From contig NZ_FNCE01000008.1 of the NCBI RefSeq assembly GCF_900100655.1, forward strand, positions 62,001-126,000: a DNA stretch of 64,000 bases, in the 5' to 3' direction. The notes under the pieces are model-generated. The model ran no database searches. It saw only the letters and a program-made list of their open reading frames with translations, and was not told the origin of the DNA. The translations under genes and the position numbers were made by a program. Of this stretch, positions 42,242 through 48,464 are shown in pieces. Each line of letters starts with the position of its first letter. Within the stretch, counting starts at the first letter, position 1. This stretch comes from Limimonas halophila (GTDB taxonomy: Bacteria; Pseudomonadota; Alphaproteobacteria; Kiloniellales; Rhodovibrionaceae).

Positions 42242-43303
42242 ATGCGCGTCCTCGGGATCGAGACCTCCTGCGACGAAACCGCCGCCGCCGTCGTCGACGG
42301 CGAGCGCCGGCTGTTGAGCAACCTGGTGGTGTCGCAGCTCGACGAGCACCGGCCGTTCGGCGGCGTCGTGCCCGAGGTCGCGGCGCGCGCCCACCTGGAA
42401 TACCTGGATTCGCTGATCGCGCGCGCCATGGACGATGCGGGCCTCGGCTACGGCGAGCTGGACGGCGTCGCCGCCACCGCCGGCCCCGGCCTCATCGGCG
42501 GGCTGTTCGTGGGGCTGATGACGGGCAAGGCCATCGCCGCCGCGCGCGATCTGCCGCTGATGGCGGTGAACCACCTGGAGGCGCACGCGCTGACGGCGCG
42601 GCTGACGGACGACCTGCCCTTCCCCTACCTCCTGTTGCTGGTTTCCGGCGGGCACTGCCAGCTCGTCGCCGTCGGCGGCGTGGGCCGCTACACCGTCTAC
42701 GGCGGCACGGTGGACGACGCCGTGGGCGAAGCCTTCGACAAGACGGCCAAGCTGCTCGGCCTGGGCTACCCCGGCGGCCCGGCGCTGGAGCGCGCAGCGG
42801 TGGACGGCGATCCGGCGCGCTTCCCGCTGCCGCGGCCGATGCTGGGGCGCGAGGGCTGCCGCATGTCGTTTTCCGGGCTGAAGACGGCGGTGCGCCACAC
42901 CGTCGAGCGCCTGGACACCCTGGACGAACGCACGGTCGGCGACCTCGCCGCCGCCTTCCAGGCGGCGGTGGCGGACGTGCTTGCGGACCGCTGCGCCAAC
43001 GCGCTGGACGCCTTCGCCCGCGACCACGGCGTGCCGGGGCCGCTGGTGGTCGCCGGCGGTGTGGCGGCCAACGCGGCGCTGCGCGCGCGCCTCGAAGATC
43101 TGGCGGGCGCGCGCGGAACGCGGCTGGTGGCGCCGCCGCTGGGCCTGTGTTCCGACAACGCCGCCATGATCGGCTGGGCGGGCGTGGAGCGCCTGCGCCT
43201 GGGCTGCACCGACGGCCTGGACGCGCGCGCCCGCCCGCGCTGGCCGTTAACGGAGATGAGTCCCGCGGACGTCGAAAAGGGAGCCGCGGCATGGAGCGCG
43301 TGA
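42242..43303 (+). CDS. tsaD: tRNA N6-threonylcarbamoyladenosine transferase TsaD
   Basis: 353 residues. It transfers threonylcarbamoyl to A37 of ANN-decoding tRNAs. [20 protein letters not shown] is the family start. The metal-binding histidines are in NHLEAHAL. The ATP-binding ASKHA blocks include [55 protein letters not shown] and [12 protein letters not shown]. Its stop lies inside gpsA (13-base overlap). Confidence 0.97.
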
Positions 43304-44286
43304 GCATCATCGGCGCCGGCGCCTGGGGCACGGCACTGGCGCAGGCGGCGCGCCGGGCGGGCTGCGAGGTCACGCTCTGGGCGCACAATCCCGAGGTGGC
43401 GGAGACACTGGCGGTGCATCAGGAAAACCGCCACTACCTGCCGGGCATCCCGCTGGACCCGGCGATCCGGCCCACCGCCGACCTCACCCACGCCGCCGAG
43501 GCGGGCGACGTGCTGGTGCTCGCCACCCCGGCGCAGCACCTGCGCACGATCGCCGAGCGGCTGCATCCCGTGACGGGCGCGGAGGTGCCGGCGGTGATCG
43601 CGGCCAAGGGCCTGGAACGCGGCAGCAGCGCGCTGATGAGCGCCGTGCTCGCCGAGGCGCTGCCCGGCCGGCCGGCGGCCGTGCTCTCCGGCCCCACCTT
43701 CGCGGGCGAGGTCGCGCGCGGGCTGCCCGCCGCCGCCACGCTCGCCGCCGAGGACACCGAGGGCGCGGCGGCGCTGGTGGAGACGCTGGGCAGCCGCGCC
43801 TTCCGGCTCTACGCCAGCACGGACGTGGTTGGCGCCCAGATCGGCGGCGCGGTGAAGAACGTCGTCGCCATCGCGGCGGGCATCGTCGCCGGACGCGGGC
43901 TGGGCGAGAACGCACGCGCCGCGCTCATCACGCGCGGGCTGGCGGAGATCGGCCGCCTGGCGGTGGCCCGGGGCGCGCACGCGGAAACGCTGAGCGGGCT
44001 GTCGGGCCTGGGCGACCTGACGCTGACCTGCACCGGCATCGCCTCGCGCAACTACACGCTCGGGGTCGCGCTGGGCGAAGGGCACGCGCTGGCGGACGTG
44101 CTGGCGGCGCGGCGCAGCGTCACCGAGGGCATCCACACCGCCAAGGCCGTTACGGCGCTGGCCGAGCGCGCGGGCGTGGACATGCCCATCGCCGCGGGCG
44201 TGGACGCGGTGGTCAACCACGACGCGGCGCTCGACGACACGATCGACGCCCTGCTGGCGCGGCCCTTCCGGTCGGAGAGCCGATAA
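43291..44286 (+). CDS. gpsA: Glycerol-3-phosphate dehydrogenase (NAD(P)+)
   Basis: 331 residues. It makes sn-glycerol-3-phosphate for phospholipids. The nucleotide-binding [13 protein letters not shown] is followed by LWAHNPEVA and [24 protein letters not shown] precedes the catalytic Lys in [13 protein letters not shown], and [11 protein letters not shown] comes later. It is translationally coupled to tsaD by a 13-base overlap, a common alphaproteobacterial order. Confidence 0.97.
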
Positions 44287-44337
44287 GGGCGTCACCGCCC
44301 CTGGTCATGGGAACCCGCCGACGCTAGGTAGAGGGCC

Positions 44338-44529
44338 ATGAACACGCTGGTCACCATCCTGCTCGTGCTCGCCCTCCTGATCACGGTGGGCGTGCTCTTC
44401 TCGGGCCTCATCGTCATGGCGCGCGGCGGTGAGGTGAACCGCAAGTACGGCAACAAGCTCATGCGCTACCGCGTCGTCTGCCAGGGCGTCGCGCTGGGGC
44501 TGCTGGCGATCGCCTTCATGATCGGCTAA
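44338..44529 (+). CDS. HIG1-like twin-transmembrane protein
   Basis: 63 residues with two transmembrane helices (about 4-27 and 45-62). The connecting loop GGEVNRKYGNKLMRYRVVCQG matches the small HIG1/hypoxia-induced family found beside gpsA in alphaproteobacteria. Mitochondrial relatives associate with cytochrome oxidase complexes; the bacterial role is not proven. It sits 51 bases after gpsA and is the last high-GC gene before the AT-rich island. Confidence 0.8.
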   Translation: MNTLVTILLVLALLITVGVLFSGLIVMARGGEVNRKYGNKLMRYRVVCQGVALGLLAIAFMIG

Positions 44530-46248
44530 CAGTTGCAATCAAACAATTGCGCAGCGCATACAAGGAACCGGCTTACTATTCAAGCAATCTAAGACAAACC
44601 ATGCGAAAATTCGTAATAGTCCAATAAGGCCAATGTCTTGCGAATTTCTGACTTCGCATCGCTATAATAACTCTCGTACACATTATGAACCAGCGAAAGG
44701 CAGTAAGGAAAATCTACTTCATCTGGGTTCAGGCTTTGCAGGGCATGTAAAAGCTGTCGCGCCTTGGCTAAACTTCCTAAATCTATTTCATCTTTATTTA
44801 TAATTTTGTCGCGGATCGGCTTAATTTTCTCGGATATTTTGTACGTCTTTGGCATCTCCGTGTTTTTTAATATTTGAACTTTCTTGTTTCGAGCAGACGA
44901 GAAACTTGTGTCTGTGCTCTCTAAAAATGAAACGGCTTGCTTCCGCGTCATTCCAGATAAATATACGTAGTAATACAGAGGTCCCCACCAGGAGGGCACT
45001 TGAGATAGTGCCTTTAAATAAGCTTTTGGGGTTTTGATATTTGACTGCTTCATGAACGCTTCTAAAATATCTGTCTCAAGAATGACATCCTTTTGTATTT
45101 CTACCTTACCAGTGTCTGACAAAACCGTTGTTACTGGCTCTACTTCACCTACTATCCGAAGTGTCGGCGCTCCCTCTGTTTCTGATAATCTACCGTGCCT
45201 AATGAAATTTATTTCTCCAAGCAAAGATTCATCAATATATAAAGAGCCGCCTGGACCCTCGACCATCCCATCAACTGTATTTAGTATACCGACATTTTCT
45301 GCACCAATCTTACCTACACGCTGAATTAGGTCATGCCAGCGTTGTTCGATTTGTCTATCGCGTTCTTGCAATATATTTTGCAGATCTGCAATACGTATAA
45401 GATTATTCTCACCACTATATCTATAATATATCTGACCTTCGGAAATTTTTTGTCCGTCTTTTTTTATCATAACTGGTTTTATAGGTGCTTCCTGTACATA
45501 CAGAACTGCCAAATCCTCCCCACCCCTATTAATCTTTAGACGCTTCCAATACACAGATGGCGAAACCCTACTATTTATTGCATTATTTATCTTCTTTGTG
45601 TCTTCTTTCCAAAATTTTTTGTCCTTTAGACCTACAATTTTCCAATCATTGTCCTGCACTCCGAAAACGATATACCCACCTTTATTATTTGCCATTCCGC
45701 AAATCGTTCTAGAGTATTCGTCAAACGCGTTCAACTGAAAACTCTTCTTACATTCAATTATATCGCTTTCATCAATATTTAAATAGTGATTGTCATTCTC
45801 GTCCTCCGGAAGAATTCGGAATAGCTCTTCTTTCGATTCTGGATGAAACTTATATCTACCAGAGTTATTGTAATTATCAAGAAAATTTTTTAAATCTTGG
45901 TACGTCGCCGGAGAAACATCGTGATATATTTTTCCATCTTGAATTTGACTTATTCTTCCTTGATTTACGGTTCTTTCGGGGTAGCTGAAGAATGACAATA
46001 TCTCTTGATTGTTAAAATATCCGGTATTTATCATCGCCTTAATTAAAGATACTTCCTGTCTGGTCAACTTATTTTTCTTCGCCATCGCTTACACCTACTT
46101 TAGAATTTATAACAAGGTTGTAGGCATATACATTAACAACAAATGGATGAAGCTCGTCAAGGTTGATCTCGATGGATTGCACTAGATGCGCGATTGCAAT
46201 ATCTCTGTATTCGAACATTTATCTGAAGCAAAAGGTTAAATGTGAAAG
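44530..46248. mobile_element. AT-rich genomic island carrying one gene
   Basis: About 1.7 kb of roughly 35-40% G+C by eye, within ~70% G+C DNA. The edges are sharp: right after the HIG1-like stop at 44529 and at the bestrophin stop at 46249. It contains the AlbA_2 gene and AT-rich flanks. TTGCAATC at 44533-44540 recurs inverted as GATTGCAA at 46192-46199, near both ends, but eight bases could be chance. No integrase, transposase or clear direct repeat is visible. Horizontal acquisition is inferred from composition alone. Confidence 0.65.
44589..46085 (-). CDS. HTH plus Schlafen/AlbA_2 domain protein, horizontally acquired
   Basis: 498 residues. The N-terminus (8-50) is HTH-like: RQEVSLIKAMINTGYFNNQEILSFF, then RTVNQGRISQI. 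Residues ~100-235 are an AlbA_2/Schlafen core: E106-SDII-E111-C-K113, ICGMANNKGGYIVFGVQD (Asp145), and YYRYSGEN. The acidic residues and lysine are arranged as in nucleolytic Schlafen cores, so nuclease activity is conceivable. Residues 240-498 are unrecognised, helical and Lys/Asn/Ile-rich. Codon usage is strongly A/T-ending, unlike every neighbour. Relatives occur as solitary regulators or putative defence genes; no partner gene is present here. Only a weak AGGTG ribosome-binding site precedes ATG 46085. Confidence 0.8.
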   Translation of the reverse strand: MAKKNKLTRQEVSLIKAMINTGYFNNQEILSFFSYPERTVNQGRISQIQDGKIYHDVSPATYQDLKNFLDNYNNSGRYKFHPESKEELFRILPEDENDNHYLNIDESDIIECKKSFQLNAFDEYSRTICGMANNKGGYIVFGVQDNDWKIVGLKDKKFWKEDTKKINNAINSRVSPSVYWKRLKINRGGEDLAVLYVQEAPIKPVMIKKDGQKISEGQIYYRYSGENNLIRIADLQNILQERDRQIEQRWHDLIQRVGKIGAENVGILNTVDGMVEGPGGSLYIDESLLGEINFIRHGRLSETEGAPTLRIVGEVEPVTTVLSDTGKVEIQKDVILETDILEAFMKQSNIKTPKAYLKALSQVPSWWGPLYYYVYLSGMTRKQAVSFLESTDTSFSSARNKKVQILKNTEMPKTYKISEKIKPIRDKIINKDEIDLGSLAKARQLLHALQSLNPDEVDFPYCLSLVHNVYESYYSDAKSEIRKTLALLDYYEFSHGLS

Positions 46249-47175
46249 TCAGGGCAGGTAGTAGCCCGCCGGCCGGACGGGGTCGGGCAGGTCTTCCTCC
46301 CCCAGTGCCTCGCGCAGGTTGATTTCGATCGTGCGGCTCATCGTCTTGAGCGCCAGGTCGTGCTGCGAGGTGCCGAAGGGGTTTTCCAGCTCCTCGCTGA
46401 GCGCGTCCAGCCCGAAGAAGGTGTAGGCGACGATCGCCGCCACGAGGGGCGTGAGCAGCCCAAGCGTGTCCACCAGCCCGAACGGCAGCAGCAGGCAGTA
46501 CATATAGGCCGTGCGGTGGAGCAGCAGGGTGTAGGCGAAGGGCAGCGGCGTGTTCAGGATGCGCTCGCACGCGCCCTGCACGCCCGCCAAGGCCGTAATC
46601 CGCTCCTCCAGCACGCGCCCCAGGATGTCCGTGGTCAGGCCGCGGCGCAGGCTGTTGCTGAGTTCCCCGCCAAGATGGCGCAGGATGGCGTCGGGGAGGT
46701 TGCGGCTGGCGCGCAGGGCGGGCACGTCGTCGCGGTCCAGAAAGGGCGCGATCTCGGCCCACGGGTCGCTGCCGCGCAGGTGGTGGCGCAGGGCGTGGGT
46801 GAAGGCGATGGTCAGCCGCGTCATGCGTTCCTGGGCCGCGCGGCCGGCGTCGCCGCTGGTGTCGAGCAGCGTGCCCGCCTCGCGCGCGAGCGAGCGCGTG
46901 TCGATGACGAGCTGGCCCCACTGCTTGCGGGCCTCCCACCAACGGTCGTAGCAGGCGTTGTTGCGGAAGCCGAGGAAGATGGACAGCGCCAGCCCGATCA
47001 GGCCGAAGGGCGCGGCGCTGAACGTCAGGAAGTGTTCGGGATACCGCGCGTGCAGCGCCGTCACGACCGCGCCGAGCGCGAAGATCGCCACGATCTGCGG
47101 CGCGATCTGGGGCACGATCGAGCCGCGCATGACGAAGAAGAGGCTGAGAATGCTCGGGCGGTCGCGCACGATCAT
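46249..47175 (-). CDS. Bestrophin-like membrane channel (UPF0187)
   Basis: 308 residues. It matches bacterial bestrophin homologues: FFVMRGSIVPQIAPQIVAIFALGAVVTA, LIGLALSIFLGFRNNACYDRWWEARKQWGQLVIDTRSLAR, and PLPFAYTLLLHRTAYMYCLLLPFGLVDTLG. The C-terminal ELENPFGTSQHDLAL has the typical E-x-E-x-PFG motif. Hydrophobic helices lie at about 20-45, 50-72, 205-230 and 235-258. Bacterial relatives conduct cations or anions; selectivity is not readable here. Confidence 0.9.
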   Translation of the reverse strand: MIVRDRPSILSLFFVMRGSIVPQIAPQIVAIFALGAVVTALHARYPEHFLTFSAAPFGLIGLALSIFLGFRNNACYDRWWEARKQWGQLVIDTRSLAREAGTLLDTSGDAGRAAQERMTRLTIAFTHALRHHLRGSDPWAEIAPFLDRDDVPALRASRNLPDAILRHLGGELSNSLRRGLTTDILGRVLEERITALAGVQGACERILNTPLPFAYTLLLHRTAYMYCLLLPFGLVDTLGLLTPLVAAIVAYTFFGLDALSEELENPFGTSQHDLALKTMSRTIEINLREALGEEDLPDPVRPAGYYLP

Positions 47176-47294
47176 GGGCGGGCGCTCGGCGTGTGCGGTC
47201 TTGGCGGGCGGCGGCGTGATCTAAACGCCGGTTAAACCTCCCGCGTGCGCGTGGGCGACGGACACGCGGCGATTTCCGCCGCCCACCCGGCCGT

Positions 47295-48464
47295 CTAGCG
47301 CGTGTGCTCGCCGCTCCGGTCGGCCCAGGTGACGGCGCGCTGATCGCCCTCGCTCCCCGCCGGGACCTCGCTCGGGCGATGGCGCAACAGCACCGCGGGC
47401 AGGATGGCGCTGGTCAGCACGGCCAGCACGATGGCGGCGTAGTCGCCCTGGGTGAGCACGCCCGCTTCCAGCCCCGTGCCGGCGGCGACGATCCCGAAGC
47501 TCAGGCGGTAGTTGAAGATCAGCCCGGCCATGCGGGCGTTGATGCCCATGAGCTTGCGTGCCGGGTAGGCCGTGCCCACGAACTTCAGCGCCGTCGCCAC
47601 CGCCAGCAGCGCCGCCGCCGCGACCAGGACCTCCGGCGTGATGGCGCGCACGTCGAGCTGCGTGCCCGCGTGCAGGAAGAACACGGGCGCGAACAGCCCG
47701 AACACCAGCCCCTTGAGCTTCTGCTCCACGGCCTCGTGCTCGACCACCACGCGCGACATCGCCACGCCCACCGCGAAGGCCACGGTCGCGGGGTGGATGC
47801 CGCCGACGTTCTCCACGGTGAAACCCAGCCCGATCAGCACGACCAGCAGGAAGCGCAGCTCCGGCTCGGCGACCGACCCCTTGTAGCGCTTGAACACCCA
47901 CTCCCCGGCGCGCGGCAGGCCGAAGAAGGTGCCCACGAGCACCAGCACGATGATGGCGGTGCCCCACCCGGCGTCGCCGAGCAGCGCGGCCAGCGTGACC
48001 ATGCTGATGACGTCGACCACCGTGGCCGAGGCGAGGATGCCCTGCCCCTGCGCCGTGGGCAGCATCCCGCGCTCCTTCAGCGCCGGGTAGACGAGCGCCA
48101 GCGAGGTCGTGGACATGGCCACGCCCACCAGCGCCGCGGGCAGCGGGGCCAGCCCCGCGACCCAGTAGGCCAGCGCGAACACACCCACGAAGGGCGCGAC
48201 GAAGGACGAGACGCCCACGCCGACGCAGCCGCGCCACATCCAGCGCAGGCGGCGCATGTCCACCTCGAACCCGGCGGTGAACATCAGCGCGATCATGCCC
48301 AGGTCGGCCAGCAGCTCCAGCCAGGTGACCTCGTGCAGGTCGACGACCAGCGCACCCAGGACGATGCCCGCGATGATCTCCAGGAAGGCGCTGGACACAC
48401 GCAGCTCCAGCGCCACCGCGGCGGCCACCACCAGCGCCACGGCCATCAGTAGGGATGCGTCCAC
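47295..48464 (-). CDS. CPA2-type cation/proton antiporter
   Basis: 389 residues from a GTG start with GGAGG 8 bases upstream. About eleven to twelve hydrophobic helices with Na_H_Exchanger features: VSSAFLEIIAGIVLGAL, ADLGMIALMFTAGFEVDMRRLR, STTSLALVYPALKERG, GQGILASATVVDVISMVTLAALLG (Asp in the transport core) and APVFFLHAGTQLD. There is no C-terminal TrkA-N domain, unlike KefC. It probably exchanges Na+ or K+ for H+ at the inner membrane. An in-frame start at 48536 would add a poorly supported extension. Confidence 0.88.
   Translation of the reverse strand: MDASLLMAVALVVAAAVALELRVSSAFLEIIAGIVLGALVVDLHEVTWLELLADLGMIALMFTAGFEVDMRRLRWMWRGCVGVGVSSFVAPFVGVFALAYWVAGLAPLPAALVGVAMSTTSLALVYPALKERGMLPTAQGQGILASATVVDVISMVTLAALLGDAGWGTAIIVLVLVGTFFGLPRAGEWVFKRYKGSVAEPELRFLLVVLIGLGFTVENVGGIHPATVAFAVGVAMSRVVVEHEAVEQKLKGLVFGLFAPVFFLHAGTQLDVRAITPEVLVAAAALLAVATALKFVGTAYPARKLMGINARMAGLIFNYRLSFGIVAAGTGLEAGVLTQGDYAAIVLAVLTSAILPAVLLRHRPSEVPAGSEGDQRAVTWADRSGEHTR

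Follow-up and report, generated by a model that had tools for sequence, protein, structure and literature searches.

A solitary Schlafen-type gene in an AT-rich island carries an N-terminal module shared with unrelated candidate effectors

A 64 kb stretch of alphaproteobacterial DNA (hereafter the window) contains a sharply AT-rich island occupied by a single gene. We consider it probable that this gene was acquired horizontally and that its 498 aa product, termed P0001, is a one-gene sensor-effector in which an HTH module, a single AlbA_2/Schlafen RNase lobe and a helical C-terminus act together against phages by cutting tRNA or rRNA. An anti-phage sensor-effector is the best reading because a solitary, foreign, AT-rich gene combines a Schlafen-type site with a module that is present on two other defence-type effectors. 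The foreign composition, the intact gene, the predicted fold, the catalytic residues, the shared N-terminal module and the mobile contexts of relatives were all computed. The catalytic part is ordinary, and Schlafen defence in bacteria is already known in kind; the combination is new as far as we searched, and the new element is the shared module. The features of the locus are these:

44338..44529, + strand: left neighbour, HIG1-domain protein (PF04588, E 1.1e-10)
44515..46251, no strand: AT-rich island (maximum-likelihood two-state segmentation of 43000-48000; G+C profile)
44589..46085, - strand: HTH-AlbA_2 (Schlafen-type) gene, P0001, 498 aa (intact ORF; PF04326, E 3.1e-20)
45861..46085, - strand: predicted N-terminal HTH module, residues 1-75 (alignments A2 and A9; BLASTP; profile; model)
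45402..45770, - strand: AlbA_2/Schlafen core, residues 106-228, with E106, E111, K113 and D145 (Pfam, SLFN13 alignment, fold, conservation)
45087..45401, - strand: linker/extension, residues 229-333 (alignment A1; AlphaFold2 model)
44592..45086, - strand: predicted C-terminal all-helical domain, residues 334-498 (AlphaFold2)
46069..46218, - strand: 49 aa upstream ORF overlapping the gene start (read from the sequence)
46249..47175, - strand: right neighbour, bestrophin (PF25539, E 2.7e-113)

The segment from 44530 to 46248 has a G+C content of 37.9%, compared with 70.2% across the whole window, in good agreement with the values of about 35-40% and 70% estimated in an earlier, sequence-only reading of this DNA. 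Segmentation of positions 43000-48000 likewise gives 37.9% within the island and 73.1% beyond it, and the lowest 1.5 kb G+C values of the window (mean 70.3%, sd 5.3%) fall in the island. That reading had also placed the boundaries at two stop codons. Specifically, the left edge is the TAA of the HIG1 gene (44527-44529, + strand) and the right edge is the stop codon of the bestrophin gene (46249-46251, - strand), such that the island lies between two convergent genes. No repeat joining the two edges was found. The four immediate neighbours scanned (gpsA, HIG1, bestrophin and a Na/H antiporter gene) are neither defence nor mobile-element genes. Neither HIG1 nor bestrophin could be detected (tblastn, E up to 1) at the gpsA loci of G001, G002, G004, G005, G011 and G018, which were compared over 3.6-11 kb each, with the G001 contig ending ~575 bases past gpsA. 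Among nine relatives searched for bestrophin, only G005 has one, located elsewhere in its genome. Neither an empty HIG1/bestrophin site nor a G+C-rich copy of the gene at this junction was seen in the relatives compared. The genus of the window organism and that of G355 are each represented by a single genome among those compared.

The gene begins with ATG and runs as a single unbroken frame (GC1/2/3 = 0.45/0.31/0.36). It provides the only AlbA_2 match in the genome (3.04 Mb, 26 contigs), so the island does hold one solitary and intact Schlafen/AlbA_2 gene, as had been proposed. No close relative of P0001 was found, and neither P0001 nor its relative L041 has a match in the GenBank phage collection.

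The foreign origin suggested by the sequence-only reading gains support from the distribution of relatives, which occur on plasmids and phage-like contigs. Within the same order, a full-length homologue is present in 0 of 60 other genomes, and only partial matches to the family profile were recovered, in 7 of the 60. A class-wide draw revealed the N-terminal module in at least 13 of 385 genomes, one copy each, where it is attached to three Schlafen proteins, seven DUF3644 proteins (in L098 within a shorter protein), one metallo-β-lactamase (MBL)-like protein and two weakly matching short ORFs. In a phylum-wide draw the module was found in at least 5 of 398 genomes, the window genome included. 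The other four belong to the same class and comprise one Schlafen (L049), one truncated DUF3644 protein (L050) and two short or unclear cases.

Module-bearing genes are also poorer in G+C than their flanks in 22 of 24 instances (mean difference -0.10, sign test p 3.6e-5; flanks shorter than 5 kb a side at several loci), the two exceptions being L002 and L102. For DUF3644 module genes the count is 14 of 15. By comparison, in 11 of these loci most ORFs that reach 300 aa or more slightly exceed their surroundings in G+C (median +0.03). The 24-gene count leaves out L008 (frameshifted), L050, L098 and L101 (truncated or short) and some plasmid DUF3644 hits. A further genome contig hit (L007) was dropped because, judged by eye, the reading frame under the match does not encode an AlbA_2 protein.

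Several relatives reside in mobile contexts, which for phage surroundings is expected of IMG/VR, a viral collection, and for plasmid hits likewise of the plasmid collection from which they came. The L041 contig carries terminase and head-tail adaptor genes and is phage-like. L046 (IMGVR_UViG_3300005588_000650) is preceded by genes for a type III restriction enzyme and for an ATPase resembling LmuB, and followed by genes for a resolvase and for a phage terminase. L047 adjoins an integrase gene, and L054 lies ~3.3 kb from one. Two further loci, L059 (1914-2990) and L060 (1823-2911), are single HTH-less AlbA_2 genes that lie moron-like between phage genes of the other orientation. A tail terminator gene flanks L059 (the one of the pair scanned for this), the other side of both genes is occupied by PHROG families of unknown function, and the pair has a dN/dS of 0.10. 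Other relatives are plasmid-borne.

The core of P0001 (residues 106-228) matches AlbA_2 with 73.3 bits against a Pfam cut-off of 25.3 (PF04326, E 3.1e-20), and E106, E111, K113 and D145 are arranged as originally described. When the family profile is compared with PDB sequences, E106, E111 and D145 align with E205, E210 and D248 of SLFN13, numbers inferred on the assumption that positions in the PDB chain run 13 too high throughout. According to the accessible part of PMC5862951, the E205A and E210A variants of SLFN13 are inactive, mutating E205, E210 or D248 lowers RNase activity, and the triad is required for full tRNA cleavage. E106, E111 and K113 are invariant in all 14 family members, P0001 counted, and D145 is kept in 12 of these, with substitutions in L047 and L011. 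Acidic residues of the E106/E111/D145 type also occur, by eye, in AlbA_2 proteins of different architecture (e.g. L025), and so these residues are not specific to RNases.

Structural comparison leads to a similar assignment. The AlphaFold2 model of the whole protein was built from 9 sequences and has a mean pLDDT of 72.8 and a pTM of 0.39, with pLDDT values of ~70-84 over most of the core. This model matches SLFN13 (Foldseek E 2e-5; VIA Z 9.0, 120 residues, 3.5 Å), the rSAMD9 tRNase domain (VIA Z 10.3, 153 residues, 4.1 Å) and also the structures of SLFN5, SLFN11 and SLFN14. The Schlafen matches span approximately residues 78-245 (two begin at 36) and cover one core only; neither these matches nor Pfam revealed a second AlbA_2-like lobe in P0001. 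The top structural match is DIP2311 (3lmm, Z 13.1), an uncharacterized Corynebacterium protein that is no Schlafen. A PHROGs family that matches P0001 is labelled 'DNA helicase' (E 2.5e-10), and the PADLOC candidate PDC-S50 matches in part (E 2.3e-10, model positions 42-148 of 387). Taken as sequence and model evidence, the partial PADLOC candidate match, the aligned SLFN13 triad and the Schlafen/SAMD9 tRNase folds favour the defence-type effector that was initially suspected.

The ~260 C-terminal residues that the sequence-only reading could not place do not form one block, but split into a poorly modelled extension (residues 229-333) and a helical domain (residues 334-498). The extension is predicted to begin with a long helix (232-260) that is followed by low-confidence strands (pLDDT below 50 over residues 278-332). 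It is partly common to HTH-less relatives, and G305 is kept in those of alignment A1. Residues 334-498 modelled alone yield a pLDDT of 92.7 and a pTM of 0.89 (AlphaFold2, 4 sequences). Structure searches with this domain gave no convincing match (the lowest Foldseek E values were 1.2 for PDB and 0.81 for BFVD, and the highest VIA Z was 4.5), and no housekeeping regulator was seen among the matches of the C-terminal part. The earlier idea of a possible new domain in the C-terminal half fits residues 334-498 as modelled, a lack of match being no proof of a new fold. In two Schlafens with short C-termini (L011 and L046), this end of the protein weakly matches the C-terminal part of PDC-S19 models (E 0.0016 and 0.0028), a sequence likeness hinting at a second shared module.

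The N-terminal HTH noted earlier is predicted at residues 1-75 and, beyond what had been noted, also fronts unrelated effectors. In the P0001 model these residues form three helices that resemble HTH domain structures with Z scores of 4.6-4.8 over 48-51 residues (VIA). No named HTH family in Pfam, NCBIfam or PADLOC matches them (P0001, E up to 1), and the family profile finds no PDB sequence match for the module (E up to 10). Searches with the whole protein returned homologues plus proteins that match only approximately residues 3-76. These proved to be DUF3644 proteins, and in a BLASTP alignment the module is 42% identical to that of a DUF3644 protein over 74 columns. DUF3644 is a HEPN family (PMC3710099, accessible part). 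All 15 counted DUF3644 partners either exceed the Pfam cut-off (12 proteins: L010, L016, L022, L024, L002, L003, L004, L006, L017, L019, L104 and L105) or score as PADLOC PDC-S19 (three: L018, L042 and L043). PDC-S19 also matches L010 and L016 (E 1.1e-110 and 2.4e-115, PADLOC). The HEPN domain bears an RHEIEH-like motif, and neither the Pfam nor the PADLOC match extends over the module. P0001 itself matches neither DUF3644 (Pfam) nor PDC-S19 (PADLOC), and has only the N-terminal module in common with these proteins. L050, at 27.5 bits against a Pfam cut-off of 27.6, looks like a truncated DUF3644 protein.

On the Schlafen side, six intact genes carry the module (P0001, L013, L014, L041, L047 and L049, the last being identical to L054). 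Two others are L008, which is frameshifted in the module, and L046, whose module is a variant with an insert. HTH-less AlbA_2 relatives are represented by L009, L011, L012, L015, L059 and L060.

The third partner is an MBL-like protein encoded on the Tistrella mobilis plasmid pTM2. A full-length relative, 53% identical, is encoded on Rhizobium phaseoli pBS3d, and R. leguminosarum has a truncated version. The module of the pTM2 protein matches a profile built without it (probability 98.9). The MBL part shows a partial match to LmuA (PADLOC; E 3.7e-9, 56 of 345 model positions) and a weaker one to Avs1a. Lactamase_B scores fall below the Pfam cut-off of 22.7 bits (L023, 18.4; L102, 17.4), ComEC_Rec2 matches also remain below cut-off, and inspection by eye shows an HxDxDH-type motif in these MBL-like proteins. 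Judged from sequence, the Schlafen and DUF3644 assignments are more secure than the MBL one. On pTM2 (L103, 3112-6557), the HTH-MBL-like gene immediately follows an LA2681-family HEPN gene, and its G+C is 0.44 compared with 0.64 in the flanks.

Repeated swapping of the module between effectors was considered and rejected. A tree of 16 modules (6 SLFN, 10 HEPN, the MBL modules left out) is explained by a single partner change, which has support of 87/94 and occurs in 90% of bootstrap trees, with strong support on only 1 of 13 inner branches. The sequences indicate that the module is common to different effectors, and we make no claim of repeated shuffling. A more tentative proposal, which we take seriously without favouring it, is that residues 1-75 may be the swappable targeting or trigger module of an alphaproteobacterial one-gene polymorphic defence family whose members end in a Schlafen, HEPN or MBL effector. 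A single signal would then set off three killing reactions of different chemistry, with the Schlafen version adding an orphan helical domain. The shared module would link three candidate defence gene lists that are now kept apart. Its presence on Schlafen, HEPN and MBL-like proteins, and the unmatched helical C-terminus, are the points worth following.

Some small ORFs of ~80-100 aa (L051, L086, L099 and L100) encode a similar HTH of weak likeness with a motif like RQHDIAAWFGVNGGRIAEI. The ORF of L086 is the end of a longer frame, and L051 weakly resembles KorA/TrfB (E 0.022).

We propose that P0001 would be held quiet until infection. The HTH module (envisaged as DNA-binding), the C-terminal domain or both would then pick up a phage signal. 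This signal would assemble or free a homodimer of AlbA_2 lobes to create an RNA-clamping groove, and the E106/E111/D145 site would cut tRNA or rRNA. Translation would stop, and the infected cell would abort phage production. Dimerization, the RNA substrate, the trigger and protection from phage are steps that we infer. Points that speak against the proposal are the presence of the acidic residues in AlbA_2 proteins of different architecture, the substitution of D145 in L047 and L011, the non-Schlafen DIP2311 as top structural match, the 'DNA helicase' label, the single AlbA_2 lobe and the lack of defence genes among the four neighbours scanned.

A different role for the module is the alternative that fares best, although we regard it as doubtful. 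The shared HTH might only be an autoregulator that represses its own promoter and keeps a toxic RNase low, leaving the C-terminal domain alone to sense infection. Effector genes are often autoregulated, the modelled fold of the module is HTH-like, and HTH-less AlbA_2 relatives exist, indicating that the module is dispensable for the core. However, a shuffle test of 16 upstream regions (13 module-bearing genes and three HTH-less relatives) found an inverted-repeat operator no more often than by chance in 15 of them, and the P0001 upstream region was no better than its shuffles (55 of 60 as good). The inverted repeat upstream of L031 stands out, with 2 of 60 shuffles as good before correction for 16 tests. 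L053/L047 lies outside this test, as its locus starts at the gene.

We judge it unlikely that P0001 instead regulates transcription or binds nucleic acids without acting as a nuclease. Such binding is a property of Alba-type folds, P0001 has an N-terminal HTH, AlbA_2 proteins often carry annotations of this kind, and relatives are labelled 'RNA-binding' or 'ATP-binding'; the top fold match is, moreover, an uncharacterized bacterial protein. Against this view, the catalytic triad is kept, the gene family is patchily present in mobile DNA, and the same HTH module appears on HEPN and MBL-like proteins, which would be unexpected for a metabolic regulator.

A gene of recent arrival that is inert and decaying would agree with the unameliorated foreign composition and with the frameshift in the module of L008, but we consider this improbable given an unbroken ORF of 498 codons that retains its conserved residues. 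Least probable of all is a toxin-antitoxin pair that mainly stabilized a lost mobile element, with the 49 aa upstream ORF as antitoxin: this ORF (46069-46218) does overlap the start codon, but it lacks a Pfam match (E up to 0.1) and a plasmid match (tblastn, E up to 1), is probably a remnant or chance frame, and by eye has no similar counterpart in the 300 bases that precede L031, L032, L044 or L054, upstream ORFs at other loci being listed only from 60 aa.

The proposed anti-phage sensor-effector can be compared with several known systems. Bacterial Schlafens that mediate anti-phage defence are described in a preprint (Taboada et al., 2025) cited in the accessible part of PMC12839542. P0001 is like these in its AlbA_2 core with the Schlafen triad and in the mobile or defence-type contexts of its relatives, and is distinguished by the HTH module and the orphan helical C-terminus; the architectures of Taboada et al. 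(2025) may include that of P0001. Among PDB sequences, the family profile best matches CbCash (PDB 9ylu, 9ylv, 9ylx; E 1.2e-10 over the AlbA_2 core), which is likened by core sequence alone and has a chain of 297 aa, compared with 498 aa for P0001. The cores of SLFN13, SLFN11 and SLFN14 and the SAMD9 tRNase domain match the predicted fold of P0001, with the three acidic residues as in SLFN13. In contrast to the two-lobed pseudo-dimer of SLFN13 (PMC5862951, accessible part), P0001 has one AlbA_2 lobe.

PDC-S19 proteins have the same N-terminal module and a DUF3644 HEPN effector unrelated to AlbA_2, whereas in the MBL-like proteins of pTM2 and pBS3d the module precedes a putative metallo-β-lactamase-like fold. 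Schlafen RNases also occur among BREX-associated effectors, together with a minimal histidine kinase and a wHTH (PMC12839542, accessible part). The Schlafen RNase core is common to these and P0001, but the HTH of P0001 is N-terminal and no HATPase match is present (Pfam, E up to 1). The concept of one N-terminal domain on several effectors is known from AbiJ-NTD domains, which are ~100-160 aa, helical or alpha+beta, and common to different Abi effectors (PMC3710099, accessible part); here the likeness is by description only. In the literature searched on Schlafen, HEPN, MBL and Lamassu proteins, some of it accessible only in part and with bioRxiv and most subscription papers outside its range, we found no description of the module; among the papers listed in a search for PDC-S19 and PDC-S50, none mentions either.

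At the viral locus L046 (313-8138), the HTH-Schlafen gene begins at the last base of the LmuB-like ATPase gene (E 1.4e-21). By its sequence, this locus may be an operon of the Lamassu type in which the effector is a Schlafen.
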